A stretch of DNA of 23,487 bases from a virus: positions 1 through 23,487 of IMG/VR virus record IMGVR_UViG_3300037508_000264, one strand, 5' to 3'. The notes beneath the pieces are model-generated. The model searched no databases. It saw only the letters and a program-made list of their open reading frames with translations, and had not been told where the DNA came from. The position numbers and the translations under genes were made by a program. Position 1 is the stretch's first letter; each line of letters starts with the position of its first letter. Below are positions 1 through 16,392 of the stretch, piece by piece.

Positions 1-54
1 CGTGCCGGCCACCAGCGGCGAGCACAGCACAGCGAGGATGATGGCGGCACGCAT
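1..54 (-). CDS. partial CDS: start of a probable secreted protein
   Basis: Only the first 18 codons are in the window; the gene is cut by the left edge. From the ATG at 54 the minus strand reads MRAAIILAVLCSPLVAGT, a charged start, a hydrophobic core and small residues before a possible cleavage site, as in a signal peptide. A secreted or membrane product, for example a lysis protein, is possible but cannot be identified. The Shine-Dalgarno is weak, and between 55 and 136 I see no other feature. Confidence 0.35.
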   Translation of the reverse strand, partial: MRAAIILAVLCSPLVAGT

Positions 55-136
55 TGCCGCAGCATCGCGGAAGTGTCAAGCCGGCGGGGGCGACCAGGGT
101 GGAAAGGAGACACCCCGGCCGCCGCGCCCGCCCGGC

Positions 137-361
137 TCACTCAGGCACGCCAGCCAACGCTGGCAGCGGCCTGCGAATCTCGTCACGTCTCGCTAGCTCT
201 ACCGTCAGGTGATTCACCTCCGCGAGCAGCCGCTTCCTCTCGGCCAGGCATCGCAGCACCATGCCCGCGAGAGTGCCGCTCGTGCCAGTGAACGCACCGC
301 AGAATCGACGAGCAGCGTGCTCCATCGACTTCACCTCGTGGTCGCTCAGAGTCACGCTCAC
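137..361 (-). CDS. 74-aa helical protein
   Basis: A 74-aa protein. The GTG at 361 overlaps the previous stop as GTGA and has GGAAGGA upstream, so it is the preferred start; another GTG at 376 is possible. VTLSDHEVKSMEHAARRFCG is followed by SGTLAGMVLRCLAERKRLLA and EVNHLTVELARRDEIRR, giving helices with a leucine-rich coiled-coil-like C-terminal part. No family is recognised. It is the last complete gene before the left edge. Confidence 0.5.
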   Translation of the reverse strand: MSVTLSDHEVKSMEHAARRFCGAFTGTSGTLAGMVLRCLAERKRLLAEVNHLTVELARRDEIRRPLPALAGVPE

Positions 362-555
362 GAGAAATCCTTCCACTCGTCGTCGTCATCGTCGAGGTCG
401 GCCCGCATCGCCTTGACCTCCGCGGAGATGCCTTGCAGGTGAGCTACGGCCGCCGTCGCGAATAGCGTATGCGTCGTGGCAATCTCGCTCACCGCCCTGG
501 CGATCGCCAGCACGTTCTGCTCGAGAGCGGATACGCGAGCCTCTAGGTCGGTCAC
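358..555 (-). CDS. 65-aa coiled-coil protein with acidic tail
   Basis: A 65-aa protein starting at a GTG (555) whose GTGA overlaps the upstream stop. The first half (MTDLEARVSALEQNVLAIAR, AVSEIATTH) has a heptad pattern typical of a short coiled coil, followed by a helix and an acidic end (DLDDDDDEWKDF). It may be an oligomerising small phage protein. It shares the LDDDDD tract with the 63-aa protein at 2314-2505. No family is recognised; the gene is supported by overlap with both neighbours. Confidence 0.55.
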   Translation of the reverse strand: MTDLEARVSALEQNVLAIARAVSEIATTHTLFATAAVAHLQGISAEVKAMRADLDDDDDEWKDFS

Positions 556-1046
556 TGCTGCTCCTCACGATGCAGCAGCAACGCCAGCAGTGCGTAGGAC
601 GCCAAGTCGAAAAGGTTATCCTCGAGCGACTCGTTCTCCAGCCGGCCGGTGGCGTTGTACGTGGCGAGCCTCGTGACCTTGTCGCTCAATCGCACCATCG
701 CGCCCTTCCAGGCCGGGATGCCGACGAACTTCGCGCCGTTGCGGATGTTGGCGAGCGGGTCCGTGCCGCTCGGACACCCGTAGTCGGCGCTTTTCTTTCT
801 GTGCATTTCTTTGATGTCGTCGCACAGCTTGAAGAATGCCTGTGACGTCGGATGCACGGCTTCGGCTTTTGCAGACGCAAACGCTGGCGGCGTCCATTCC
901 GCGTAGGTCTCGGGGCTGGCGTTGAGGATGCCGTCACCGGGCAGGCGATAGCCCTGCATTTTGGGATCATCGGCTGGCGTGGCGTCGAGCCGCTCACGCA
1001 CGGCTGCCCGCATTGCGTCGTTTGCTTCCTGCAGTGCTGTCGTCAT
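552..1046 (-). CDS. all-alpha NTP pyrophosphohydrolase-like (DUF1599-like) protein
   Basis: A 164-aa protein whose C-terminal half resembles the nucleotide-modification-associated/DUF1599 type of all-alpha pyrophosphohydrolase: MHRKKSADYG (81-90), DPLANIRN (96-103), GIPAWKGAMVRLSDKVTRLA (109-128) and NESLEDNLFDLASYALLALL (138-157), the last with the acidic E/D pattern expected at the metal site. Such enzymes are thought to act on nucleotides. The N-terminal 60 residues are a variable lead-in. An AAAGGGA Shine-Dalgarno precedes the ATG at 1046. The stop overlaps the next start as GTGA, and the start overlaps the phosphoesterase gene by 53 bp. Confidence 0.65.
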   Translation of the reverse strand: MTTALQEANDAMRAAVRERLDATPADDPKMQGYRLPGDGILNASPETYAEWTPPAFASAKAEAVHPTSQAFFKLCDDIKEMHRKKSADYGCPSGTDPLANIRNGAKFVGIPAWKGAMVRLSDKVTRLATYNATGRLENESLEDNLFDLASYALLALLLHREEQQ

Positions 1047-2118
1047 TGGTTCCCTTTCGTAAATCTCGGTCGCAGAACAATGGGTAGGCGCGCGTCACTT
1101 CCTGCCGGCCGTGGTCAATGATTGCCATGCCCTGGCACGGCCGCTCTGGTGACGCGACTCGCTCAGCGTATGGGCTATGTCCAATGACGCTGCCATTCGC
1201 CACGTAGCGGGCACCACGCAGCCAGCCCCAGCAGTGGTAGTGGCCGAAGATCGTCAGATCCGCCTTGCGGCCTGCGTCCCACCGTGCGATAGCCTTGCTC
1301 GCCGGCAGAGCCAATCCGTAGACGCCGCCTGCATAGCGGATGCTGTGGCCGTGTGTAGTGCGGACGAGGAACCCGTCGAGGTCGACGTAGCCCAGATGCC
1401 CCTCTGCAATCTGCCACCGCACGTTCGCGTTCTTTTCCTCGCGGGCGAGCGTGAAATACATGAGCTGCTCCCACGAGTGGTCGAGCTCAGTGGCGATGCG
1501 ATTCTTTTCCGTGCTTCGCCCGTGGTTCCCTGCGTTGGTGCAGACGATGACCGTCTCGGCGTTGGCGGCCACCTTGTCGATGAGTCCACGCAGCCGCTCG
1601 GCAATCCATCGCGTGGCGTTCATCGGGGAGAGCTGGGCCACCTCGACGCAGTCGGGGTGGATGTGGCCAGTGATGAAGTCCCCGCCCAGCCAGATTAGGA
1701 CGCGGCGGATGTCAGCCTGGTTCCGCTCGTGCTGCAGGCACTCTAGGAATCGCTCCTCAAGTTCCCCGAGCCGCTGTTGACATACGTCAAGCGAGTAGTC
1801 GTTTTCACCGTTCACCGTCTCGGGCAGGACTCGCTCCTCGCAGTGGACGTCCGACAGCATCAGGATGGCCGTGGCGTCGTGCTTGGCCCTTTTCTTGCCT
1901 TTGACAGTGTTGGTCAAGGCAACTGGCTCCACGCCTTTCAGCGACGAAATCGCATCCGCCCGCTCGCGTTCCTTGTCGATGGCCTGAAGTGCAGCCTTGT
2001 ACCGGCCACGCAGCGTGGCAACCTCAGATCGCAGGCGTGCCAGCTCGGCGTCGGCCGCGAGCTGTGAGGCTGTCCCGGCGTCATCCACGGCCGCCTCTGT
2101 CAGTCGCTTCGCAGCCAT
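994..2118 (-). CDS. calcineurin-like metallophosphoesterase
   Basis: A 374-aa phosphoesterase with all the family motifs: DVH (D90, H92 in LMLSDVHCEE), GGD (D147), GNH (N198, H199 in TNAGNHGRS), THGH (H256, H258) and GHYH (H293, H295). These bind two metals and would hydrolyse phosphoesters, possibly of nucleic acid or nucleotides; the substrate is not shown. Residues 20-60 form a charged coiled coil (ADAELARLRSEVATLRGRYK). The C-terminus is basic. The ATG at 2118 follows CCAGGGAG; extending to 2283 would add 55 residues of shadow sequence. It overlaps the next gene by 53 bp. Together with the pyrophosphohydrolase-like neighbour it suggests nucleotide or nucleic-acid processing. Confidence 0.88.
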   Translation of the reverse strand: MAAKRLTEAAVDDAGTASQLAADAELARLRSEVATLRGRYKAALQAIDKERERADAISSLKGVEPVALTNTVKGKKRAKHDATAILMLSDVHCEERVLPETVNGENDYSLDVCQQRLGELEERFLECLQHERNQADIRRVLIWLGGDFITGHIHPDCVEVAQLSPMNATRWIAERLRGLIDKVAANAETVIVCTNAGNHGRSTEKNRIATELDHSWEQLMYFTLAREEKNANVRWQIAEGHLGYVDLDGFLVRTTHGHSIRYAGGVYGLALPASKAIARWDAGRKADLTIFGHYHCWGWLRGARYVANGSVIGHSPYAERVASPERPCQGMAIIDHGRQEVTRAYPLFCDRDLRKGTNDDSTAGSKRRNAGSRA

Positions 2119-2354
2119 GACTCGACTCCCTGGTGGCCTACAGGCGAGATACCACGCTCTTGCAAGACCTTGCTCAGAGACCGTGCGAACACACGCAGCG
2201 GCAGCTTGATCCTGCCTGCCTTCCAATCGGACTTCACTGCCTGCAGCTCTGCCTGGTGCTCTTCTGCCACGCGACGATGCCACGGTTGCGTTCCGTGCGT
2301 CACGACTGCGGTGCTAACCGCTTCGTCGAGGAGGCTTGGCTTTCCCTTTCCCAC
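2100..2354 (-). CDS. 84-aa helical protein, possibly DNA-binding
   Basis: An 84-aa helical protein starting with the GTG at 2354, which follows AACAGGAG at good spacing. The body (PWHRRVAEEHQAELQAVKSD, then WKAGRIKLPLRVFARSLSKV) and the end LQERGISPVGHQGVESWLR resemble small helix-turn-helix proteins, with a turn at RGIS and a last helix carrying the specificity-like residues; this is structural impression, not a family match. It overlaps the preceding gene by 41 bp and the phosphoesterase gene by 19 bp. A TTG at 2387 would add 11 residues but lacks the good ribosome site. Confidence 0.55.
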   Translation of the reverse strand: MGKGKPSLLDEAVSTAVVTHGTQPWHRRVAEEHQAELQAVKSDWKAGRIKLPLRVFARSLSKVLQERGISPVGHQGVESWLRSD

Positions 2355-2505
2355 GCTTTGGCTCCTGTTCCTGGGGCTGCGACTCAAGGTGTATCCAGCC
2401 GTCGTCGTCAGGAATCACGCTGCCAGCCTCGGCATCGTCGTCGTCATCCAGATCCGGCGGAAGAATGACAGCCTCTGGCTGGGGCTGCTTCCGTGGCCGT
2501 GGCAT
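2314..2505 (-). CDS. 63-aa acidic/basic small protein
   Basis: A 63-aa protein with an AGGAG Shine-Dalgarno before the ATG at 2505. MPRPRKQPQPEAVILPPDLD is followed by DDDDDAEAG, an acidic run, and by a basic, Lys/Gly-rich end (EPKRGKGKAKPPRR). It has no recognisable fold and is probably largely disordered. It overlaps the next gene by 41 bp. The DNA upstream forms a hairpin over its Shine-Dalgarno. A gene is supported mainly by the start signals and the in-line spacing. Function is unknown. Confidence 0.5.
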   Translation of the reverse strand: MPRPRKQPQPEAVILPPDLDDDDDAEAGSVIPDDDGWIHLESQPQEQEPKRGKGKAKPPRRSG

Positions 2506-2511
2506 GGGCGT

Positions 2512-2544
2512 CGCTCCTGTGACGCCTACAGCGTGACAGGCGCG
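2512..2544 (-). promoter_or_regulatory. intergenic hairpin covering a Shine-Dalgarno
   Basis: The whole gap between the 130-aa and 63-aa genes folds: CCTGTGACGC (2516-2525) pairs with GCGTGACAGG (2531-2540) at 9 of 10 positions with a 5-nt loop, plus three outer pairs after a mismatch. On the transcribed minus strand the CACAGGAGCG Shine-Dalgarno of the 63-aa gene lies in the stem. There is no U-tract, so translational control is more likely than termination. This is inference from sequence only. Confidence 0.5.
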
Positions 2545-2937
2545 TCAAGCACGACGGCGGGCGTTGGCTATCGCTCGCCGCACGAGGAGCCGCCCGGCGG
2601 CGTCGAGGAACGGCAGGCCGCGAGCCTTGGCCTCTGCTCGCATGACCGCCACGACCTCGTCGATGCGCTCGGGCTTGCTGCACTCGTCGCATCCCCAGGC
2701 GTCCATCTCTGCCGCCTTGGCGCGGCAGGAGCACGTCGGCGTCGGCTCGATGCCAAACCGCTTCAAGAGCTTGGAAAGCTCGGTGCCGGGGCCGTGGCCG
2801 ATGGGCTGCGACTCTTCTTGGTTGCGACTTAACTGCTGCGGGGCTGGGCATTGTCGCGGCGAGCCGCAAAACTTGTCTTCTACTCCGCACACGATGCACG
2901 ACGTGCCGGCGCTGTTGCACACGCAAAGCCCCGTCAT
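2545..2937 (-). CDS. Cys-rich 130-aa protein of planctomycete-like type
   Basis: A 130-aa protein. Its N-terminus has CVC, CIVC, and C24/C30; a middle line GHGPGTELSKLLKRFGIEPT leads into CSC (69-71), MDAWGCDEC (78-86), a helix (RIDEVVAVMRAEAKARGLPF) and LLVRRAIANARRR. The GPGTELxxLL-xxxGI plus CxC plus MDxWGxxxC arrangement is one I recall from hypothetical proteins in Planctomycetota; function unknown. The two Cys clusters suggest zinc or disulfide sites. The ATG overlaps the upstream stop (ATGA). An earlier in-frame start would read inside the previous gene. Confidence 0.65.
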   Translation of the reverse strand: MTGLCVCNSAGTSCIVCGVEDKFCGSPRQCPAPQQLSRNQEESQPIGHGPGTELSKLLKRFGIEPTPTCSCRAKAAEMDAWGCDECSKPERIDEVVAVMRAEAKARGLPFLDAAGRLLVRRAIANARRRA

Positions 2938-3800
2938 GCTTGCACCCCGGATATCGTGACGGTTTGGGATGTGACGTTCGTGTCGCCGTAGCCAGACAGT
3001 GACATTCCAGCAAACCCCGAGAAACAAGGCGGCGACGTATACGGACCTGCGCTCTCTGCCGACGGAGACGGAGAATTGAAAGAGAGAGCCTGTGGAGCCA
3101 AGTCTGATGGGTTAGTCCCCCACCCAGACTTCACAATGTTTGCGCCGCTGGCGTAGTCAGGAAGCTGCCACTCTGTATCGTCAATGAAATAGCCTAAGTA
3201 AATCCATCGCACTGTGGTCGATGTTAGATATATCGTGCTGATATCTATGCAGCCGCGCACGCCATTGGCAAACGCAAGAAACGAGTTTATCTCGCCATAT
3301 CTCCACAAAGGGCAGTCTGTCTGATATTGAGCAGCGTTGAATACAGGCGTCCACGGCGACGCAATTGCTGTTTGCGGCAAAATGGATAGCGTCAGGGACG
3401 CCGACAAAGATTTTGACTTTGACTCACTGCCAGTTCGCGAATACCCACCAAGACCACTTTTTGTGTAGACGTTTCTTTTGAGGACATACGAGAACTCGAC
3501 GGCGATATTCATAAAACGCGGATAGCCTAGCTCCCCGCAAAAGCAGTGGCAGCGGGAAGTGTCCTGCGTTTTTGGCGTGCCGTCCGCATTGCATCGCAAG
3601 CACGGATTCGGACTGCACGTCGTCCCCACCCCCTTGAACGTCTCCCCCGCACCCTGGCACTGGCACTGCGGCTTGACGCTGCACGTCGTGCCTTCGCAGC
3701 ACGCGCCTTCTTTGCAGGCTTCGAGACAGGCGGCTTCGGTGGCGTAGCCAAACGAGCCAGATCCGATGCCGTTATGTGATGACGTTTGTCTGCAAGGCAT
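2934..3800 (-). CDS. Cys-rich putative tail/adsorption protein 2
   Basis: A 288-aa protein. Residues 3-88 contain 16 cysteines, including a module beginning GACCEGTTC and ending GVGTTCSPNPC (about 33-67) that matches a Cys-rich repeat I know from secreted proteins of Planctomycetota. A CHCFCG cluster follows at 84-89. The rest is beta-rich with many aromatics (FMNIAVEFSYVLKRNVYTKS, VRWIYLGYFIDDTEWQLPDY). The ATG at 3800 lies 7 nt past the upstream stop, with no clear Shine-Dalgarno. A GTG at 3929 would add a signal-peptide-like MKLTLVLLTLVAGCGA, but it would overlap the upstream gene by 122 bp, so I prefer 3800. The stop joins the next ATG (ATGA). Local GC is low (24 of 60 at 3181-3240). Confidence 0.6.
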   Translation of the reverse strand: MPCRQTSSHNGIGSGSFGYATEAACLEACKEGACCEGTTCSVKPQCQCQGAGETFKGVGTTCSPNPCLRCNADGTPKTQDTSRCHCFCGELGYPRFMNIAVEFSYVLKRNVYTKSGLGGYSRTGSESKSKSLSASLTLSILPQTAIASPWTPVFNAAQYQTDCPLWRYGEINSFLAFANGVRGCIDISTIYLTSTTVRWIYLGYFIDDTEWQLPDYASGANIVKSGWGTNPSDLAPQALSFNSPSPSAESAGPYTSPPCFSGFAGMSLSGYGDTNVTSQTVTISGVQA

Positions 3801-3807
3801 GGCGGCA

Positions 3808-4431
3808 CTACGTCCGGGTGATAGAAAATGAGGACACGGACTTTGGCTCTGTGCCTCTTCCAGTGAAAGTCCCGGTAATGCCGCACCACACCCAGCTACC
3901 AGTGTTAGTAGCACCAGCGTCAACTTCACCTATTTCAGGCATAGATACAAACCACCTTCCAGAGCGGCGGGTAAAAACGCCGTTTATGGTCCCGCCAAAA
4001 CTTGAAGGTGAGGTAACGAAACCTCCAGGGCTCCTTATCTGTGCTCTGTCGTTGCCTGCTTGCGGAAAATCTTTGGCGTATCCAGCAGCCATGCAGTTTT
4101 CAAGACCCTGGGTTGGATTCATGTTTCCGTTTTCAAAGCGGGTCGCCACAGCAGCAGTCCCAGCTAAGGAAAGGGATGCTGATATGTTCAGAGAGACATC
4201 GCCAGTCCCAATGAATACGCAACGCTCTATAAACCCAGCTTCAAAGAGTAGCGGATTGGTAGAAACCCCCGCACTCTCCCAGCACGAATCGGAAAAGGTA
4301 GTTGTGGAATAAGGCAGCGAAGTGTGTTCTTCGCACCGATAGCAATACCACGCCCCGCAGCACCCGCAGTCCTCTGCGAGCTTGCCGTCCTTGAGGATGA
4401 TCGCGTTGTTCTTCGTCGCGATGGGCGTCAT
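3808..4431 (-). CDS. Cys-rich putative tail/adsorption protein 1
   Basis: A 207-aa protein starting at the ATG at 4431, whose ATGA overlaps the previous stop. The N-terminal DCGCCGAWYCYRC (residues 21-33, five Cys) is a tight metal- or disulfide-type knot, then a Ser/Thr/Gly-rich, beta-looking body (ISASLSLAGTAAVATRFENG, GGTINGVFTRRSGRWFVSMP, SWVWCGITGTFTGRG). Cys also occur at 50, 71, 113 and 183. The DNA is clearly less GC-rich than in the capsid or tape measure genes. It lies with another Cys-rich gene downstream; together they look like an exchangeable receptor-binding unit. No signal peptide is seen and no family is recognised. Confidence 0.6.
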   Translation of the reverse strand: MTPIATKNNAIILKDGKLAEDCGCCGAWYCYRCEEHTSLPYSTTTFSDSCWESAGVSTNPLLFEAGFIERCVFIGTGDVSLNISASLSLAGTAAVATRFENGNMNPTQGLENCMAAGYAKDFPQAGNDRAQIRSPGGFVTSPSSFGGTINGVFTRRSGRWFVSMPEIGEVDAGATNTGSWVWCGITGTFTGRGTEPKSVSSFSITRT

Positions 4432-4898
4432 GCGCAAGCCGTCGTAGTGATGGTCGACACGCTCTCCGTCGCCGTGCTGGCGACAGTGATGGACGCTCGC
4501 GTGAATTGCAGCCCCGCCGTCCCGAGGCTCACGCCTGTGAGAACAATCACGGACGTCGTTGCCGTCGTCTGCTGAACGACGTCAATCAAAAACCACGCCG
4601 TGCCGTCCTTCGCGACGGCGCAGTCCCTGCTGCCTGCCGCAGTCGATGTGACGGGGAAGAACAGATTCGTCGCACTGACGGTATTCGGAGTCGACGTCCG
4701 ATTCTTGAACGTCACGGTCTTCGCCGAACCAATAGCCCACGCACCCGTGTAGGTGGCGACGCGAAATACCCGCGCTTTCGCGAGCGTGTCCTGCCGCTGC
4801 GTCTCTAGCGGCTGCCCACCAGGCCGGGCGTTCTCAACGACCCTAACAACGCGAGCGATCCTCGCCGCGGCAGGCCGTGTGAATGAGATCCGCTCCAT
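4428..4898 (-). CDS. small structural protein, probably tail
   Basis: A 156-aa protein with a TAGGTG Shine-Dalgarno before the ATG at 4898. A basic N-terminus (MERISFTRPAAARIARVVRV) leads to Thr/Val/Ala-rich strands: KARVFRVATYTGAWAIGSAK, TVTFKNRTSTPNTVSATNLF, DGTAWFLIDVVQQTTATTSV and ITVASTATESVSTITTTACA. The composition suggests a beta-rich virion component. Its stop overlaps the next ATG (ATGA), linking it to the Cys-rich 207-aa protein, whose DNA is of lower GC content. Function is not recognised. Confidence 0.5.
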   Translation of the reverse strand: MERISFTRPAAARIARVVRVVENARPGGQPLETQRQDTLAKARVFRVATYTGAWAIGSAKTVTFKNRTSTPNTVSATNLFFPVTSTAAGSRDCAVAKDGTAWFLIDVVQQTTATTSVIVLTGVSLGTAGLQFTRASITVASTATESVSTITTTACA

Positions 4899-4913
4899 GC
4901 GTCACCTACGGCG

Positions 4914-5288
4914 TCACTTGTATTCGACGTAGGCCACGTCGACCGTCAGGTCGCCGGTAGCGTTCGCGAAGACGCGAATCGTGTGATCCTCGGGCAGCAC
5001 CAGCTTCGCCGTGCCGTCGACCACGCGGAGCGAGGCGTCGGCCGGCACCGAGATTGTCGTATACAGCTGCGTGGAGTTCGTGCCGACGAATCGCAGCACG
5101 CTCACGTCGGCAGAGTTCACTCCGTCGACGTTATTGACGGTAAGCGAGTTGATCTCGAGGACGGCGGAACTAGCGGACCCGTTGGCGAGAACGAGCGTGG
5201 CGCTCGACCCGGTGGCGGTGCCGACAGGGATCGTCACTGTCCGCAGATACACCTCGGTCGCGGTACCGGCAACATTCGGAGCAGCCAT
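4914..5288 (-). CDS. small beta-rich structural protein, probably tail
   Basis: A 124-aa protein with GAGGTGAAGG before the ATG at 5288. It is Val/Thr/Ala/Ser-rich and built of short strands: TEVYLRTVTIPVGTATGSSA, VLEINSLTVNNVDGVNSADV, LRFVGTNSTQLYTTISVPAD, IRVFANATGDLTVDVAYVEY. The pattern fits a small all-beta virion protein. It follows the fibre by 8 bp and precedes another small structural protein by 15 bp, so a role at the tail tip or fibre is likely. No family is recognised. Confidence 0.55.
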   Translation of the reverse strand: MAAPNVAGTATEVYLRTVTIPVGTATGSSATLVLANGSASSAVLEINSLTVNNVDGVNSADVSVLRFVGTNSTQLYTTISVPADASLRVVDGTAKLVLPEDHTIRVFANATGDLTVDVAYVEYK

Positions 5289-5296
5289 CCTTCACC

Positions 5297-6631
5297 TCAA
5301 GTACGAAAGACAAAATGCAGAGAACGTGCAGCCGGGGCGGCAGAGCCACCGCTTCCGCCACCCGACGCAATAGTGATCGTCGAGCCGGCGGTGCTCACCG
5401 TCACATTACTGCCCGCTGCAATAGTCAGCGTTCCCGTGAGCCCGTTGAGGGTGCTCACGTGGCTTGGCATCCGAGCGACGTCGAGCGTCCCGCTCGTGAT
5501 GTCGGCGGCGGCATGGGTGTGAACCGCGGCAGCGGCAGTGATGTCCCCGACCGTCGGCAACCCGTGGACGTGATCCTCGCGGCTGGCGTTCGCGGACGAA
5601 CCGGCCGCCGCCGTGCCGAGAGGCTGCGGCGTTGCCGAGCCAACCGCCAGGCCGGACGTGCCGCCAGCGAAGGCAATCGTGATAGAGCCGGCGGACGTGT
5701 CACGGGTGAACGCCATGCCCGCGCCCTGCACGAGCACGGGACTCACGATGGAATAGCGACTCGTCCACGTCGCACTCGTGCCGTCCGTGACCAGCGGCCC
5801 AGCGTAGCCAGCCTGCGCCGGCAGCCCGGCATACCCGGAGATGTCGCTGGTCGAGTGCGTGTGCGTGGCCGGTGCGAACGTCAGCGGCACGTTGCCTAGG
5901 CTCGTGTAGGAGCCGCTGGTGGCCACGTCCGCCAGACCCGAGACGTCAGCCGCGGCCAGGCTGATTGTCCCCGTGCGGCCCGCCACCGACTGCACAGGGG
6001 CGGCGGCCGACGCCGCTGCGGTGAACGACACGATGTCGGTCGTGGAGTGCGTGTGGCCGACTTGCGAGAACGACGCCGTGAGCCCGACGATGTCGCTGGT
6101 CGAGTGCGTGTGCACCTCAGCGGCGGCGGTGAGGTCTGCCCGTGTGATGACGACGGCCCCCGTCCTCGACTGCACCGCCTGCACGGGTGCCGCGGCAGAC
6201 GCCGCCGCCGTGAATGCCACCACGTCCGTGGTCGAATGCGTGTGAGCCGACGGGGCAAACGTCGTCGGAACGCCGCTCAACGCCGTGTACGAGATCGTCG
6301 GAATGCGGGCGATCGCGAACGTGCCAGCCGTGACGTCACTCGCCTGTAGGACGATTGCCCCGACTCTCCCGGCCACGGACTGCACCGGCGAGAACCCCGC
6401 CACGACCGCCGTGTCGTAGCTCGCAATCGTGAACTGTCCGCTCGTCGTGCTGACCGTGATGCCAGGTCCGGGCACCAGCTGGAACGTGCCGAACGCATTC
6501 GTCGCCGTGCCTGGCACGGTCAGGAATCCAGCGGGTCCGATGCCGCCGCTGGCGACCACGGAGATACCCGTGTTGCCGCTGACGGAGACACTGACGCCCG
6601 TCTCGCCAAGGATCGAGACGCTGATGGCCAT
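5297..6631 (-). CDS. tail fibre protein with His-box (HxH) repeats
   Basis: A 444-aa, Ala/Gly/Ser/Thr/Val-rich low-complexity fibre. Six HxH sites, most inside the repeated HTHSTTD/HTHSTSD motif, lie near residues 130, 174, 193, 257, 354 and 371; a VQSVAGRTG-type repeat recurs at about 82-100, 148-167 and 211-230. HxH collars are known from tail fibres such as T4 gp37, where they bind metal in a trimeric needle, so a trimeric fibre shaft is likely. The Gly/Ser-rich tail (SGGGSGGSAAPAAR) ends in LHFVFRT. It starts at the TGATG junction with the upstream gene. Receptor binding is inferred, and no distal adhesin domain is visible, so later genes may supply it. Confidence 0.8.
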   Translation of the reverse strand: MAISVSILGETGVSVSVSGNTGISVVASGGIGPAGFLTVPGTATNAFGTFQLVPGPGITVSTTSGQFTIASYDTAVVAGFSPVQSVAGRVGAIVLQASDVTAGTFAIARIPTISYTALSGVPTTFAPSAHTHSTTDVVAFTAAASAAAPVQAVQSRTGAVVITRADLTAAAEVHTHSTSDIVGLTASFSQVGHTHSTTDIVSFTAAASAAAPVQSVAGRTGTISLAAADVSGLADVATSGSYTSLGNVPLTFAPATHTHSTSDISGYAGLPAQAGYAGPLVTDGTSATWTSRYSIVSPVLVQGAGMAFTRDTSAGSITIAFAGGTSGLAVGSATPQPLGTAAAGSSANASREDHVHGLPTVGDITAAAAVHTHAAADITSGTLDVARMPSHVSTLNGLTGTLTIAAGSNVTVSTAGSTITIASGGGSGGSAAPAARSLHFVFRT

Positions 6632-7928: not shown

Positions 7929-10900
7929 CAGAAAATCTCCGCTGGCGTGTTGAGGTAGCCGGCGACGGCGTTAGTGATGGCAGTGCGGATGCCTGCCAGC
8001 TGCTTCGTCTGGAGGCGGGCCTCGATCAGCTGCGGGTCTTGCGCCTGAGCGCCGAGCCCGAGGACGAGCTTCGCACCCTCGGCAGTGCGAATGTCAGCAG
8101 TCGCCACCGGCCCCTGCACGGGACGGGCAAGCTCCGCTCGGCGGGCAAGCTCTGCACCGGCTCTCGCAGTTGCCGCGATAGCGTCGTTCGCCGACGCCAG
8201 CATCCGCTGCTGCGACTGTGCGGCCCTCTGCTGCTGGGCAATCGCGGCACCGAACTGCTGATTGCTGCCGGCGGCCTGCTGCTGAAAGTTGATGCGGCCG
8301 TCGGCGATATTTCTTTCAATTCTCTCTGCCTGCCGAAGCTGTCGCAGCCTGGCCGTGCCATCCTTTGCGGCCTTGAGGTTCCCTGCGTCGCGAGCCTCCT
8401 GCACTGCCTGCTCTTCCGCGTTGATCCTGTCCTGCAACGCCTGGATGTTGAGTGCCGCCTGCCGCTTTCGCTCCTCGACCTGTGCCGCGAAATCAAGCTC
8501 CGCACGCTGCCGCTCGTCGAGCTGGCCACGCAGGAACTCTTCGACACGCTGGGCACCTACGATTCGCTGGTCGAAAATCTCTCGCTGGCGGGCGACCTCG
8601 GCCTGGTAGGCGTCTGCCGTCAGGATGCCGTCCCGAGCCTGCTGCTGGGCGGCGGCGATTCCAGCCTGCAGCTCGTCGGCAGCACGAACGCCAGCACCGC
8701 CAAACTGCTCTGTCTTTGCGATAAGGTCGTCAATGCTCTTGGTTGTGGCATCGAATGCTTTCGTGAACCCGTCGCCGAAGCCTTGCCGTGCGGCCTGCTG
8801 CTGCTCTGCCAGCCTTGCACCAAGCTGGTCAAGCTGTGCCAGCCTCGCAGTGGCAGCGTCTGCGGAGGCCGTATCTTGGGCAGCACGTGCTGCCGCTTGC
8901 TGCTCCTGTACGCGAACCTGCTCACGCTCAACGGCTGCGAGATCCTCTGCCAGCTTCGACTGAGCGTCGCTCACTTTCGTCAGAGCTTCAATCCGTTTTG
9001 TGTCCGCGTCGGCCTGCTTGGCGGCGGCATCAGCCACTTCTTGACGCCGCGCCTGCTCCTTGGTGATGGCCTCGTTGACCTTGTCTTGAGCCGCCTTGAT
9101 GCGGGCGATCTCTTCCTCGTTTAGCTTCAGCGGATCTTGCACGTCTGCGACGGCCGCCTCAAATCCACGCATGGCATCAGTGATGACGCTGCTTTGGTCG
9201 ACGATGCCGCCGAAGAACGAATCGAAACGCTCTCGCGTCTTCTCGATATTCGTGGCGATCTGAAACTCGGGGGCTCGCTCTTGCTTGACGCTGTCTCCAA
9301 AACCCTTGACGAAATCGGTTGCCGCCCCTGCACCAGCGGCAGAAGCTAACGACTCGCCTCCGAACACGACATTCGTTGCAGCGTTCGCCGCATTTGACGC
9401 TGCGTCCTGCAGCTCGGCTATGTTCTGCTGGATCGCAGCTTCCGCCTGCAGTGCAATGCCTCTGCCGAACTCCTGCACGTCAGTCGAGAACAGCCGTCCA
9501 AACTGCTCAAGCAGCCTGCCGAACAGGCCGATGCTTCCGTTGGCAAAGACCTCAAGCGCGTTGAAGATTGTTCGCAGCGATTCGCTGACGGCCACGAACA
9601 CGTTCCCGACCGCGGAGAATGTCTCGCCAGCGGACTTAAGGCTTGCGGAAAAATCGCCGAACTTGGCGACAAACGAATCAAACACGCCAGCGAGCACCCG
9701 TGCGCCATTCAACAGCACGTCCGTGATGGCATTCGCGATTCCGGTGCCGCCGGTTCCCTCGGTACCGGAAAAGCCCTCGACGAACCTAAGGAACTCGTCA
9801 GTGACGGTAGTCACGGCAGGGGCGAGGTTGCCAACCACCTGGCCGATGATGCCCTCGACAGTCTTCGACACGAGGTCGAACCCATCATTCATTGCCGCGA
9901 CGTTCTCGATCTGCGTCTCGTTGACGATGATGCCAAGCCGCTCGGCTCGAGCACGCAACTCCTCGATGCTGTCAGCACCATCGCGGAACAGTGGAGCCAG
10001 GGCCGCCCCTTTCTCGCCGAACACTTGAACGGCAGCTGCAGCACGATCTGCTGCCGTCGGCAGCTGCGATATCGCCTGGCCGATCGCGGAGAACTGCTGC
10101 TCTGGAGACAGGGCGCGAAGCTCCTGCACCGACAGGTTGATGTTTCGGAGCGACTTGTCGAGCGCATCTCCCGGCGTCGCCTTACCTATGGTCACGGACA
10201 GCTTCTGAATGGACGCGCCGAATGCCTCCGTGTCCACGCCGGCTAGCTTCGCGGCGACGGCGTAGCCCTGCAACGCCTCGACGCCGATGCCCGTCCTCGC
10301 GGAGAAGTCGTTGAGCGTGTCGAGCGAAGAGTTAACAGAGCCCACCAGGCTGGTGATCTGGCTTGTCACGCTCGTGAATGCGTTGCCGAGGGCACGCACA
10401 CCGTCAAAGACCAAGCGGCCGATTTCAATCTGCGCGAGGATGCTGACGTTTTTGTTGAGCCGCTCAATGTTTTTGTCGGTCTTCGCGGCTTCCGAGCCGA
10501 CGCCGTCGAGGTCCGACTTCGCCTTCTGTGCCGCCCGATTGAACTGCTCCTGCGTCAGCCTGCCAGCGTCCAGATGCTGCGTGAGTTCTTGAATCTGCTG
10601 GTCGTACTTTTCCTGCGGAGTCAGGTTCGCCGCAATGATGCGGGCCGCAGAAGCGGCAGCGTCGGCACGGTCTCGCTCCACGCCAGTGGCACGCTCTGAC
10701 GCACGGACGAACGTCTCCTGAGAAATCGCACCTTGCGATAGAAGGCTCTCCAGCTTCTCAAGCTCTGCCGCTCGCCGCTCTTCCTCAGTCGCCACTGAGG
10801 CCGTAACACGTAGCCCGTCCTCAATCACCTGCTGATACTTGCTCGCCGCTTCGGCTGCCTTGTCCGCTTCGCCGGTTGCCTGCCCCCTGGCTTTGGCGTA

Positions 10901-11911
10901 TGTTTCCTCCGAGATCACTCCCGCCTTTAGCAGATCATCAATCTGCTGAATTGTCTTTGCTCGTTTTTCCTCTTCCGAAGCAAACTGCTCCGTAAGTCTC
11001 GCCCCTTCTTGCAGGAGTTTTTCGCGAGCCTTCTGCGATTCAGCCTCGGCCCTAGCCGCCGCTTCTACTGACCCTGTCGCCCTGTCCCTAGCACGCCCGG
11101 CAGTCTCTTCTGAAATCGCTCCTTGCGATAGCAGCGAATCAATTTTCTCAAGTTCCGCCGCCCGCCGTTCTTCAGCGGTTGCCACAGAAGCAGTAACACG
11201 CTGCCCTTCCTCAATGATCTGTTGATACTTGCTTGCCGCTTCGGCCGCCTTCTCGGCTTCGCCGGTCGCCTGCCCCAGGGCTCTCGCGTATGTTTCTTCC
11301 GAAATAACTCCAGCCTTTAGTAGCTCGTCGATCTGCTGGATTGTCTGTGCTCGTTTTTCCTCTTCTGAAGAAAATTGCTGCGTAAACTTCAGCCCCTCCT
11401 GCAGGAGCTTATCGCGGACTTTCTGCGATTCAGCAGCGGCAGCAGCCGCAGCCGCAGTCGCCGCTTCTGACGAACCCGTGGCCTTGTCACGAGCCCTAGC
11501 GGCCGTCTCTTCCGAAATCGCACCGCGCGCGAGCAGCGACTCGATTTTTTCAAGCTCTGCTGCCCGCCGTTCTTCTGCCGTGCGAACCTGTTCAGTGACA
11601 CGGAGCCCTTCTTGAAACGCCGCTGCCGCCGCCTTCGCCTCTTCGGTCAACTGCCCAAATGCGGCAGCGTACTCATTGGGCGCGACAACGCCGTTTCGCA
11701 ACTGCTGGGCAAGCGACTCGAACTTCGCCGCGAACTCCTCTTGAGCTTTGCCCGCTGCCGCCGTCTTCTCGGCGAACGGCTGGAACACAGCCGTGGCCTT
11801 CTCGGCCTGCTTGCCGAGGTTGTCGAGCGCACGATCGACAGGCGTGAGTGACTTTGCCAGCCCGCTGGCGTCGCCGCTAACCTTGAGCGCGAGTCCGAGA
11901 ATATTCGCCAT
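7928..11911 (-). CDS. tail tape measure protein with SHOCT-like repeats
   Basis: A 1327-aa protein, the longest in the window, that sets tail length and sits in the tail lumen. By the usual 0.15 nm per residue the tail would be about 200 nm. Residues 1-470 are charged and helical and hold five 46-residue repeats (101-146, 172-217, 235-280, 302-347, 365-410) plus weaker copies at about 60-95 and 430-468. Residues about 500-720 match the core of many tape measures: DTLNDFSARTGIGVEALQGY, AAVQVFGEKGAALAPLFRDG, ERLGIIVNETQI, then hydrophobic IIGQVVGNLAPAV. The rest is Ala/Gln/Glu-rich coiled coil and an AATDFVKGFGDSV segment. Its ATG overlaps the T stop, and its TGA overlaps the next ATG (TGATG). 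Confidence 0.93.
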   Translation of the reverse strand: MANILGLALKVSGDASGLAKSLTPVDRALDNLGKQAEKATAVFQPFAEKTAAAGKAQEEFAAKFESLAQQLRNGVVAPNEYAAAFGQLTEEAKAAAAAFQEGLRVTEQVRTAEERRAAELEKIESLLARGAISEETAARARDKATGSSEAATAAAAAAAAESQKVRDKLLQEGLKFTQQFSSEEEKRAQTIQQIDELLKAGVISEETYARALGQATGEAEKAAEAASKYQQIIEEGQRVTASVATAEERRAAELEKIDSLLSQGAISEETAGRARDRATGSVEAAARAEAESQKAREKLLQEGARLTEQFASEEEKRAKTIQQIDDLLKAGVISEETYAKARGQATGEADKAAEAASKYQQVIEDGLRVTASVATEEERRAAELEKLESLLSQGAISQETFVRASERATGVERDRADAAASAARIIAANLTPQEKYDQQIQELTQHLDAGRLTQEQFNRAAQKAKSDLDGVGSEAAKTDKNIERLNKNVSILAQIEIGRLVFDGVRALGNAFTSVTSQITSLVGSVNSSLDTLNDFSARTGIGVEALQGYAVAAKLAGVDTEAFGASIQKLSVTIGKATPGDALDKSLRNINLSVQELRALSPEQQFSAIGQAISQLPTAADRAAAAVQVFGEKGAALAPLFRDGADSIEELRARAERLGIIVNETQIENVAAMNDGFDLVSKTVEGIIGQVVGNLAPAVTTVTDEFLRFVEGFSGTEGTGGTGIANAITDVLLNGARVLAGVFDSFVAKFGDFSASLKSAGETFSAVGNVFVAVSESLRTIFNALEVFANGSIGLFGRLLEQFGRLFSTDVQEFGRGIALQAEAAIQQNIAELQDAASNAANAATNVVFGGESLASAAGAGAATDFVKGFGDSVKQERAPEFQIATNIEKTRERFDSFFGGIVDQSSVITDAMRGFEAAVADVQDPLKLNEEEIARIKAAQDKVNEAITKEQARRQEVADAAAKQADADTKRIEALTKVSDAQSKLAEDLAAVEREQVRVQEQQAAARAAQDTASADAATARLAQLDQLGARLAEQQQAARQGFGDGFTKAFDATTKSIDDLIAKTEQFGGAGVRAADELQAGIAAAQQQARDGILTADAYQAEVARQREIFDQRIVGAQRVEEFLRGQLDERQRAELDFAAQVEERKRQAALNIQALQDRINAEEQAVQEARDAGNLKAAKDGTARLRQLRQAERIERNIADGRINFQQQAAGSNQQFGAAIAQQQRAAQSQQRMLASANDAIAATARAGAELARRAELARPVQGPVATADIRTAEGAKLVLGLGAQAQDPQLIEARLQTKQLAGIRTAITNAVAGYLNTPAEIF
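10682..11611 (-). repeat. five in-gene repeats (alternating A/B SHOCT-like units)
   Basis: Inside the tape measure gene five units of 46 codons recur with 63-71-codon spacing. Type A (residues 101, 235, 365) has EERRAAELEKIESLL-x-x-GAISEET and type B (172, 302) has EEEKRAQTIQQIDELLKAGV followed by ISEETYA. All end in ATG. The order A-B-A-B-A gives a supermodule of 130-134 codons. Nucleotide identity is visible too, for example GCTCGTTTTTCCTCTTC occurs near both 10960 and 11350. Neighbouring copies differ at many third positions, so the duplication is not very recent. Confidence 0.85.
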
Positions 11912-15447: not shown

Positions 15448-15658
15448 CGTGTCGCTCCTTGGGAGGTCGCCCCCGCCGCCGCGGAGTCAGGTCCGCAGAC
15501 TCGCCGCTAGGCTCAAGTGCCGCCGTCTCGATCAGGTCGGCCTGCCGATCTGCTACGGCAGTGCCCTCGGCGATGAGCCGACGAGCCACTGCCTCGTCGC
15601 AATCGACAACGTCGCCCGGCCGGTAAGTCGAGTAGTTCTTCTGGAATTTGATTTTCAC
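15404..15658 (-). CDS. small phage head-module protein with AT-hook-like tail
   Basis: An 84-aa protein starting with the GTG at 15658, whose GTGA overlaps the glycosyltransferase stop. The N-terminal half (KIKFQKNYSTYRPGDVVDCD, then EAVARRLIAEGTA) has the look of a small family often encoded near phage connector genes: a short beta segment with YRPGDVV and a helix ending LIAEGTA. The C-terminus contains RRRGRPPK (about 60-67), an AT-hook-like basic motif, and is hydrophilic after that. It overlaps the connector gene by 44 bp. An in-frame ATG at 15676 would add six residues. Function is unknown. Confidence 0.65.
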   Translation of the reverse strand: MKIKFQKNYSTYRPGDVVDCDEAVARRLIAEGTAVADRQADLIETAALEPSGESADLTPRRRGRPPKERHGELPQHQDGHAADS

Positions 15659-16392
15659 GATTGGGGCACGCTCCATGCAGTGTCGGGGGCTTTGAGCTTG
15701 CTCGTGAACTCCGTCGTCCACTGGAAAACAGGCGAGCTGAGATCCTTGCCGGGCCACGTCACGACGTACTCGCCGTGGCCGAGAATCACTCGCGGCGTCA
15801 CGAACACGCGGTTCCCGCTGTCTCGCCAATTTCTCCAGAAGTAGATGTCGTCATCGAGGCGACCGTCGTTCCAGGTGCCGTCCTCGGAGGGACGCGACCA
15901 GAACCACGGTTTCTTGCACCGCTTCAGCGCCGCCGTCGACAGCACCGTCAGTCCGAAATGCGCGGAGTCCACCTCCTGCACGGGCTCACCGAACCAACTG
16001 GCGGGCACCGTCGTGCTGCCGGTCGCGGGAGGATTGTCGAGCGTGCCCTTGAGCGTGAGCATTGGGCGGCCGTCTTCACGCTTGGTCTGCAGCCCGGTCA
16101 GTGCGTCGCACTGAAACGTGAGCGCCATCGTGAAGAGATGCTCGACGTCGGCCCTCGTGAAAAACGTGTCGTAGTCGATGGTGAGGATGTACTCGCATTT
16201 ATCAATGAACTGCTCGAAGATCCTGCTGTTCACCTGCGACCAGAACGCACCAGTGCCCATCGTGGGGCGAATGCCGAGAGGCATGAGTGCCTGAGCCCAT
16301 GCGAAGTGGTTGGCGGTAAAGCTCAACCGCGGCATCGACAGCACCGCCTCGACGCGAATGTCTGCCTCTGTGTTCCCCACCTTGACGATCAT
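15655..16392 (-). CDS. glycosyltransferase-like protein (GT-A type)
   Basis: A 245-aa protein with glycosyltransferase features. ILTIDYDTFFTRADVEHLF (residues 69-87) carries a DxD (D73, D75) after a hydrophobic strand, the metal and nucleotide-sugar site of GT-A enzymes. SAHFGLTVLSTAALKR (143-158) resembles the acceptor-side region, and DDDIYFWRNWRDSGNRVFV with RVILGHGEY (180-209) matches the usual end of the catalytic domain. There is no signal peptide or membrane segment. The ATG at 16392 follows CGAGG just past the terminator, so it would be expressed by read-through. The stop overlaps the next start as GTGA. The substrate is unknown; modification of a virion protein or of the host surface are both possible. 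Confidence 0.7.
   Translation of the reverse strand: MIVKVGNTEADIRVEAVLSMPRLSFTANHFAWAQALMPLGIRPTMGTGAFWSQVNSRIFEQFIDKCEYILTIDYDTFFTRADVEHLFTMALTFQCDALTGLQTKREDGRPMLTLKGTLDNPPATGSTTVPASWFGEPVQEVDSAHFGLTVLSTAALKRCKKPWFWSRPSEDGTWNDGRLDDDIYFWRNWRDSGNRVFVTPRVILGHGEYVVTWPGKDLSSPVFQWTTEFTSKLKAPDTAWSVPQS

Follow-up and report, generated by a model that had tools for sequence, protein, structure and literature searches.

A probable two-slot receptor-binding cassette, exchanged at conserved cysteine-rich anchors, in the tail module of a virus genome

Modular phage adhesins with exchanged receptor domains are already known. Escherichia coli O-antigen tailspikes combine a conserved N-terminal anchor with an exchangeable C-terminal receptor-binding domain and have conserved DNA motifs around that domain (PMC10408124). 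Domain shuffling is described for phage tail fibers, neck passage structures, and endolysins (PMC10684548), and conserved boundary sequences between phage modules are discussed in PMC3029335. Here, we analyzed the virus record IMGVR_UViG_3300037508_000264, a complete linear record of 23,487 bases (referred to below as the window), in which two adjacent minus-strand genes, B and A, lie in the tail module. We consider it probable that B and A form a tandem two-slot receptor-binding tail-tip cassette that is exchanged by homologous recombination at conserved anchors, the 5′ ends of the two genes.

In common with the tailspikes, the locus keeps a conserved N terminus and replaces the C terminus, with short conserved DNA at the joints, which PMC10408124 proposes as recombination hotspots. 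Unlike the tailspikes, it has two tandem slots, small proteins, and cysteine-rich anchors without a family match, the anchors being the unusual element. Moreover, tailspike anchors cluster by phage taxonomy in that work, whereas here the synonymous identity of anchor A is unrelated to that of most backbone genes, the same being less clear for anchor B. As in the shuffling described in PMC10684548, unrelated C-terminal domains stand behind near-identical N termini in close phages; that account concerns single proteins, whereas here two adjacent genes assort independently and draw on a domain pool that crosses the slots in two cases. The locus also resembles the boundaries discussed in PMC3029335, with homologous recombination at short conserved sequences between variable modules, but its boundaries lie inside the 5′ coding part of the genes, so that protein domains and not whole genes are swapped. 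Relative to known modular adhesins, the distinguishing features are two independently assorting tandem slots, a shared domain pool, empty slots, cysteine-rich sockets, and the failure of anchor A to track phage descent.

A scan of viral contigs with A yielded 68 further loci, most of them on records that are short fragments. With the window included, the set comprises 69 A genes, which encode 55 distinct proteins, and 54 B genes. Scanning the viral contigs with gene B instead found no relatives. The raw list of open reading frames placed the start of gene A at GTG 3929. This start was ruled out, since similarity to the relatives begins at ATG 3800, and genes A and B therefore do not overlap. 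The features of the locus are as follows, with guanine-plus-cytosine (GC) content given as a fraction.

3808 to 4431, minus strand: gene B, 207 residues, ATG start; putative receptor-binding tail-tip protein 1.
4333 to 4431, minus strand: anchor B, the first 33 codons of gene B (MTPIATKNNAIILKDGKLAEDCGCCGAWYCYRC); its DNA is conserved among phages, with switch points at about 4335 to 4375.
3808 to 4332, minus strand: variable part of gene B (slot 1), GC 0.51; a singleton among 93 variable parts.
2934 to 3800, minus strand: gene A, 288 residues, ATG at 3800; putative receptor-binding tail-tip protein 2.
3600 to 3800, minus strand: anchor A, the first 67 codons of gene A, with 10 cysteines and a core running from CKEGACCEGTTCSVKPQCQCQ to FKGVGTTC.
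2934 to 3599, minus strand: variable part of gene A (slot 2), GC 0.53; 99.6% identical in relative L002, with relatives of 30 to 38% identity in L003, L004, and L006.
2545 to 2937, minus strand: gene C, 130 residues, in an ATGA overlap with A, with a cysteine-rich N terminus; downstream anchor.
4428 to 4898, minus strand: g4428, the upstream neighbor, 156 residues, encoded at 36 of the 69 loci; forms the left edge of the exchanged region.

Module exchange at this place had been suggested by a first-pass annotation made from the window alone, and comparison with close relatives bears it out, as the variable parts of A, B, or both are replaced between flanks that are 88 to 99% identical. The window is 99.3% identical to L002 over positions 1 to 3800 and 95% identical over 4338 to 6078, with an unrelated variable part of B between them; protein A is 95% identical overall and 99.6% identical past the anchor core. 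In L018, the variable parts of both A and B are unrelated to those of the window (flanks 89 to 95%); in L006, with flanks of 88 to 91%, B is unrelated and A is only distantly similar (32%). L006 and L018 have B in common (98%) and differ in A, and the window and L002 have A in common (99.6%) and differ in B. Close relatives carrying the same pair of genes at a divergence matching that of the neighbors, the pattern expected without exchange, are contradicted by L002, L018, and L006, the three closest relatives found.

Exchange into dissimilar backgrounds was seen in L033 and L061, which have a common 849-bp cassette that is 99% identical, with dissimilar surroundings on both sides. In anchor B, similarity switches at the GGGTGCTGCGG core, and in anchor A it does so past the GGCGCGTGCTGCGAAGGC core, indicating that the moving unit is the end of gene B plus the start of gene A, from anchor to anchor; the window and L002 are the mirror case. 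L034 and L050 likewise have a 99% identical cassette between flanks of only 20 to 78%. The exchanged unit had been predicted to be exactly the two-gene block; it is instead the DNA between successive anchors. Switch points were defined as the ends of segments at least 95% identical, and collapsing near-identical loci left 59 such ends: 16 in anchor B, 8 in anchor A, none in the variable part of B, and 2 in the variable part of A, with the rest at or beyond the edges of the region. The variable part of B has a mean length of 606 bp, and the anchor zones have mean lengths of 170 and 220 bp. The 24 anchor ends are not all independent, as a small number of loci recur in many of the 16 in anchor B, and such an end is to some extent expected wherever the part that follows is nonhomologous. 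The most convincing cases are therefore pairs such as L033 and L061, in which both ends lie within the region. Switch-point positions differ by tens of bases within the anchors. As judged from these comparisons, the slots assort independently, the switch points fall inside the anchors, and the variable parts are replaced.

At the DNA level, two short islands recur in the comparisons, at about 4340 to 4445 and about 3600 to 3750, and many loci have no detectable similarity in between. Anchor A is complete in 58 of the 69 loci and is represented by its first half alone, up to PQCQC, in the other 11. Third-position conservation averages 0.83 in anchor A (41 distinct DNAs) and 0.84 in anchor B (37 distinct DNAs). 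Conserved DNA was also found around the NPLP-stop and the start of the next gene in 27 distinct A genes picked for their NPLP ending, and this junction constitutes a third anchor in many relatives. In the window's own lineage, A ends in GVQA and not in NPLP, and DNA similarity to L018 and L006 returns at about 2808, inside gene C. The median identity at fourfold degenerate sites, over pairs of distinct loci, was 0.67 to 0.69 for anchor A and 0.34 to 0.49 for backbone genes. Backbone genes were correlated with each other in this identity (tmp and g7056, rho 0.52, Mantel p 0.002; tmp and g6631, rho 0.33, p 0.010; g7056 and g6631, rho 0.35, p 0.008), as were g4428 and tmp (rho 0.37, p 0.002) and the fiber gene and tmp (rho 0.41, p 0.008). 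Anchor A was uncorrelated with exo (0.07), tmp (0.10), g7056 (0.01), and g6631 (-0.03), and it remained flat (0.66 to 0.72) across bins of backbone similarity.

Base composition changes at the same places. Nowhere in the window is GC lower than over B and A: of 460 segments of 500 bp, the 14 with the lowest values start at 2851 to 3951 (0.506 to 0.542); the lowest segment outside the B/A region, at 10901, has a GC content of 0.544. Two early counts were accurate, as 24 of 60 at 3181 to 3240 is exact and about 40 of 60 in the capsid gene agrees with 0.67 for the whole gene. Cysteine makes up 5.9% of A and 4.3% of B, compared with 0 to 2.3% in the other genes read in frame, and the adjoining downstream gene C is cysteine rich as well (10 of 130 residues). 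The description of B and A as low-GC, cysteine-rich genes is correct in that both properties are present, but they do not coincide: the cysteines lie in the GC-richer anchors, and the low GC lies behind them. Anchor A holds 10 of A's 17 cysteines within 67 residues at a GC content of 0.63, and anchor B holds 5 of B's 9 within 33 residues at 0.62; behind the anchors, the GC content is 0.53 in A and 0.51 in B. The remark that the proteins might be disulfide rich or metal binding suits the conserved anchors but not the exchanged parts. The profile of GC and codon use along the window, which had been put forward as a check, showed the expected minimum over B and A and a drop in GC at third codon positions (GC3) behind both anchors, from 0.73 to 0.58 in A and from 0.91 to 0.47 in B. 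In the relatives, the median GC3 is 0.76 for anchor A, 0.81 for anchor B, and 0.54 for both variable parts, and GC at fourfold degenerate sites is 0.80 and 0.75 in the anchors and 0.52 and 0.51 in the variable parts of A and B, respectively. The variable parts are close to neutral in their use of third positions. The variable part has a lower GC content than its flanks in 49 of 50 A genes and in 48 of 48 B genes. Taken whole, anchor B also has a slightly lower GC content than the sequence on either side (44 of 48, median -0.04), although its GC3 is high. The GC content of the variable parts had no significant correlation with that of backbone genes (rho -0.09 to 0.36); among backbone genes, GC at fourfold degenerate sites was correlated between exo and tmp (rho 0.99, n 8) and between g4428 and tmp (rho 0.71, n 16). 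Because the break falls inside one gene and one message, expression level does not explain it, and a different history can.

The diversity of the exchanged parts was assessed by clustering 93 distinct variable parts of at least 40 residues (49 from A and 44 from B; blastp E < 1e-5, half coverage), leaving out three short A entries (one an empty slot and two cut by contig ends). This gave 45 clusters, of which 26 were singletons. An earlier clustering with a different cut point had joined A parts through anchor remnants and was replaced. Two clusters cross the slots, one joining A of L018 to B of L018 and L006 (42% over 216 residues) and the other joining A of L056 to B of L012 (38% over 234 residues); clusters with both A and B members indicate that the slots share one domain pool. 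The A and B proteins are mostly about 150 to 400 residues long, and NPLP is the C-terminal sequence of 23 of 52 distinct A variable parts. In four loci (L031, L040/L043, and L055; three distinct proteins of 71 to 78 residues), slot A is empty, the anchor being followed directly by NPLP. The ratio of nonsynonymous (dN) to synonymous (dS) substitution rates was 0.08 to 0.60 in seven of nine variable-part pairs, dS being saturated in the other two; the pair with 0.08 has a dS of 2.9, near saturation. These values indicate that, where they can be compared, the variable parts are under purifying selection.

Taken as a tandem two-slot cassette, genes B and A would encode two small tail-tip receptor-binding proteins. 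A short, conserved, cysteine-rich N-terminal adaptor, the anchor, would plug each protein into the virion, where the cysteine cluster may lock it by disulfides (or metal) after assembly, and the beta-rich variable domain of each would contact the cell surface. As anchor DNA is alike in many phages, it could support homologous recombination between coinfecting phages or with a resident prophage, which is the simplest reading of the switch points. Crossovers at anchor B, anchor A, and the downstream anchor (the NPLP-stop and gene C start in many relatives and gene C itself in the window's lineage) would allow the two slots to change their variable domains separately, with the reading frame kept. 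Such an exchange would most likely change what the phage sticks to on its bacterial host.

The position of the genes fits this proposal. The recognized genes of the window are on the minus strand and comprise terminase, portal, protease, capsid, connector, and tape measure genes (PHROG). The tape measure gene is followed by the gene for a 444-residue protein with PHROG minor-tail matches and a subthreshold Pfam phage-tail-repeat match, then by genes for small proteins, then by B, A, C, and an exonuclease-like gene (994 to 2283, phrog_284). A and B are thus encoded in the tail module, behind the tape measure gene and a gene for a protein with minor-tail matches. No match to Pfam, NCBIfam, or the Protein Data Bank (PDB) was found, A had no match in the phage collection, and no part of an alignment of the A variable family (A2) was sufficiently conserved to search the collection with. 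As gene B has no relatives among viral contigs, a B-family member from L035 was modeled with AlphaFold instead, giving a mainly beta model with a predicted local distance difference test (pLDDT) score of 66.5. The sole structure match above noise was an uncharacterized protein of an uncultured phage, A0A6J5QSS6 (Foldseek E 6.4e-4, template modeling [TM] score 0.27). A beta-helix or adhesin fold, raised as a prediction by the first-pass annotation, was not demonstrated, the models being mainly beta and of low confidence. Receptor binding by A and B is suggested by their position and variability, by the mainly beta models, and by what is known of phage adhesin architecture.

Several observations weigh against the two-slot receptor-binding cassette. 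A and B have no PHROG match of weight (for B, none below E 0.09), the AlphaFold model of A is mainly beta at a low pLDDT of 49.5, and Foldseek and VIA-align with these weak models gave no convincing fold match. Anchor A correlates weakly with g4428, the gene adjoining B (rho 0.23, p 0.018). The exo gene is itself weakly correlated with the other backbone genes (rho 0.22 to 0.33, p 0.054 to 0.14, 8 loci), which makes the absent correlation between exo and anchor A a weak test. The pooled fourfold-site identity of anchor B rises with backbone similarity, from 0.58 to 0.66 up to 0.77; anchor B thus follows the backbone more than anchor A does, and the argument for free travel between backbones rests on anchor A. 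For GC at fourfold degenerate sites, the control pair of the fiber gene and tmp was uncorrelated (rho -0.20, n 12). Since the loci were found with A peptides, the conservation of anchor A at the protein level is partly due to selection of the loci. Finally, of the 64 loci that were found with the exonuclease gene as a second bait and had 3.5 kb or more of upstream sequence, only 20 had either anchor (anchor A in 15 and anchor B in 14).

This second bait had given 129 viral relatives, of which 80 were kept, some on contigs already in the set. The best 80 of the 129 are 75 to 100% identical in their best segment, and the exonuclease gene is a possible marker of the phage group. The other 44 of the 64 loci have different proteins (137 to 1,055 residues) at the corresponding place. 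In 24 of these 44 loci (24 of 158 open reading frames there, redundant contigs not being collapsed and start codons being assigned mechanically), at least 6 cysteines lie within 45 residues of the first 90, compared with 2 of 543 open reading frames elsewhere. A cysteine-dense N terminus therefore seems to be a common mark of the tail slot upstream of the exonuclease gene. Such N termini were noted in L075, L076, L080, L098, L116, L121, L148, L149, and L151, examples being MACPCCNPC (L098), MLGAPCSPCC (L075), and DGKIGTEQECCC (L149).

These loci bear on the idea that the variable parts are exchangeable cargo without a role in adsorption, such as superinfection exclusion, immunity, or lysis-modifying proteins carried after the tail genes. 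Cargo of this kind would account for the lack of a family match, and the four loci with an empty slot A indicate that the variable domain of A is not essential everywhere. Against this, the genes stand directly behind tail genes, the same place in the relatives found with the exonuclease bait often has cysteine-dense N termini (the 24 of 44 loci), the models are mainly beta, and A and B of the window have no signal peptide or membrane segment, as judged by eye and not by a predictor. We therefore regard cargo as improbable.

Diversity-generating retroelements and shufflons serve varied receptor-binding ends. A dedicated system of this kind, whether a shufflon-like invertase, a diversity-generating retroelement, or the tyrosine recombinase of the relatives, might move the cassettes, and the recurrence of switch points at the same cores would suit it. 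A tyrosine integrase (PF00589) is encoded in 16 of 30 records, 14 of these matches being over the family cutoff, and in 14 of the 16 it is encoded on the opposite strand, about 3 to 12 kb downstream of anchor A. However, the integrase is placed as in a temperate phage, and the switch points are scattered over tens of bases in the anchors. Reverse transcriptase (PF00078) was found in none of the 30 records, which are mostly fragments, with matches in 3 of 14 control genomes, and serine recombinase or invertase (PF00239) was likewise found in none of these 30. One anchor A is present in 48 of 50 whole records, and in the other two the extra matches lie within the same gene. Because spare ends may lack an anchor, a single anchor per record is insufficient evidence, and the variable parts themselves were searched for. 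A tblastn search with the 93 parts against the 69 loci (stretches of up to 10 kb on each side) detected no copy of a variable part beyond the A and B positions; seven matches fell outside annotated genes, all at the B position. In contrast to diversity-generating retroelements and shufflons, no reverse transcriptase, serine recombinase, or spare cassettes were found in the stretches searched. We consider a dedicated system quite unlikely, although a distant one is conceivable, as the records are fragments.

The anchor DNA could instead be conserved for some other reason, such as an overlapping signal or codon constraint, with exchange using the anchors incidentally. The high third-position conservation noted above would be expected in that case, but other genes of the same pairs reach only 0.34 to 0.49 at fourfold degenerate sites, compared with 0.67 to 0.69, so that ordinary codon bias is insufficient, and the switch points map to the anchors; this explanation is very unlikely. 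A last alternative is that no exchange took place and that very rapid divergence from common ancestors, each at its own site, produced the variable parts. In its favor, some families are related at 30 to 45% and a beta architecture may be common. It is nevertheless hardly credible, as the 99% cassettes in dissimilar surroundings (L033/L061 and L034/L050), the unrelated part between 95% and 99% identical flanks (the window and L002), and dN/dS below 1 where measurable all argue against it.

The host was approached through anchor A, residues 32 to 67 of which resemble a repeat of planctomycete secreted proteins, with shared cysteine spacing and about 50% identity. The six-cysteine spacing GACC..C..C..GxFxGxGTxC..C is present in anchor A, and hhalign aligned the two with a probability of 97% and an E value of 1.3e-10 over 36 columns, a value that is partly circular, as the phage profile had served to find the host rows in the first place. 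Repeat-carrying planctomycete loci are L071 to L073 and L152; the protein of L152, found with the host profile, has 15 tandem GACC copies behind an apparent signal peptide and no Pfam or NCBIfam match. Anchor A has one copy of the repeat (two in L006 and, by eye, in L037), and it differs from the secreted proteins in its extra N-terminal cysteines and in having no leader, gene A beginning with MPCRQTSS and no hydrophobic stretch as judged by eye and not by a predictor. In gene B of L018 (9155 to 9991), L006, and L036, a GACC-type cysteine stretch follows anchor B, as though slot B had received a copy of part of the A-type socket.

A search of 392 Planctomycetota genomes with the phage anchor profile gave three matches (per-genome E 1.3e-4 to 8.7e-4), each marginal alone, where about 0.4 would be expected by chance at 1e-3; all three fell in repeat-carrying proteins, and no prophage was seen at them. 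The host repeat profile matched in 6 of 149 genomes. A scan of the genome collection with the anchor profile returned 48 stretches that fit the pattern, none of them a relative. The terminase had a single bacterial match, on a 3-kb contig of a Planctomycetota metagenome-assembled genome (57% over about 220 residues). Relatives of the exonuclease were found in 2 of the 392 Planctomycetota genomes (34 to 36%), without an A/B locus around them, and g4428 was found in none of the 392. Planctomycetota is our best guess for the host phylum.

Further observations concern the window and one relative. In the tape measure gene (8865 to 11446), the middle is unaligned in the close relatives L002 and L006, and both sides are 78 to 93% identical; the middle is a second mosaic region, perhaps associated with tail-length variation. 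Between the capsid and connector genes, the protein encoded at 15655 to 16392 resembles a glycosyltransferase by eye and had no Pfam match at E 0.01. At the gene B position of L014 (about 9186 to 9998), B has only 84 residues, and sequence like the B variable part of L054 and L058 follows in another frame, which reflects either a broken gene or a sequencing error.

A literature search on host recognition by Planctomycetota phages found no paper. It is possible, although we propose it tentatively, that these phages share a group-wide attachment scheme in which cysteine-cluster N termini, one of them built from a repeat that secreted proteins of the host also carry, would be the standard socket for tail-tip adhesins, with socket DNA kept uniform across distant phages and adhesin domains interchangeable between two slots and many lineages. 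The locus can serve as a marker, since hypervariable tail-tip genes can be located in metagenome contigs with a single conserved anchor. It also offers a natural system for studying how phages preserve the ability to exchange adhesin domains between distant genomes, as the points of exchange, the empty slots, and the independent assortment of the two slots can all be read at the base level. The cysteine-rich anchor with its host-like secreted repeat offers a testable idea, namely, that it may lock parts of the virion together or make contact with the outer layer of the host.

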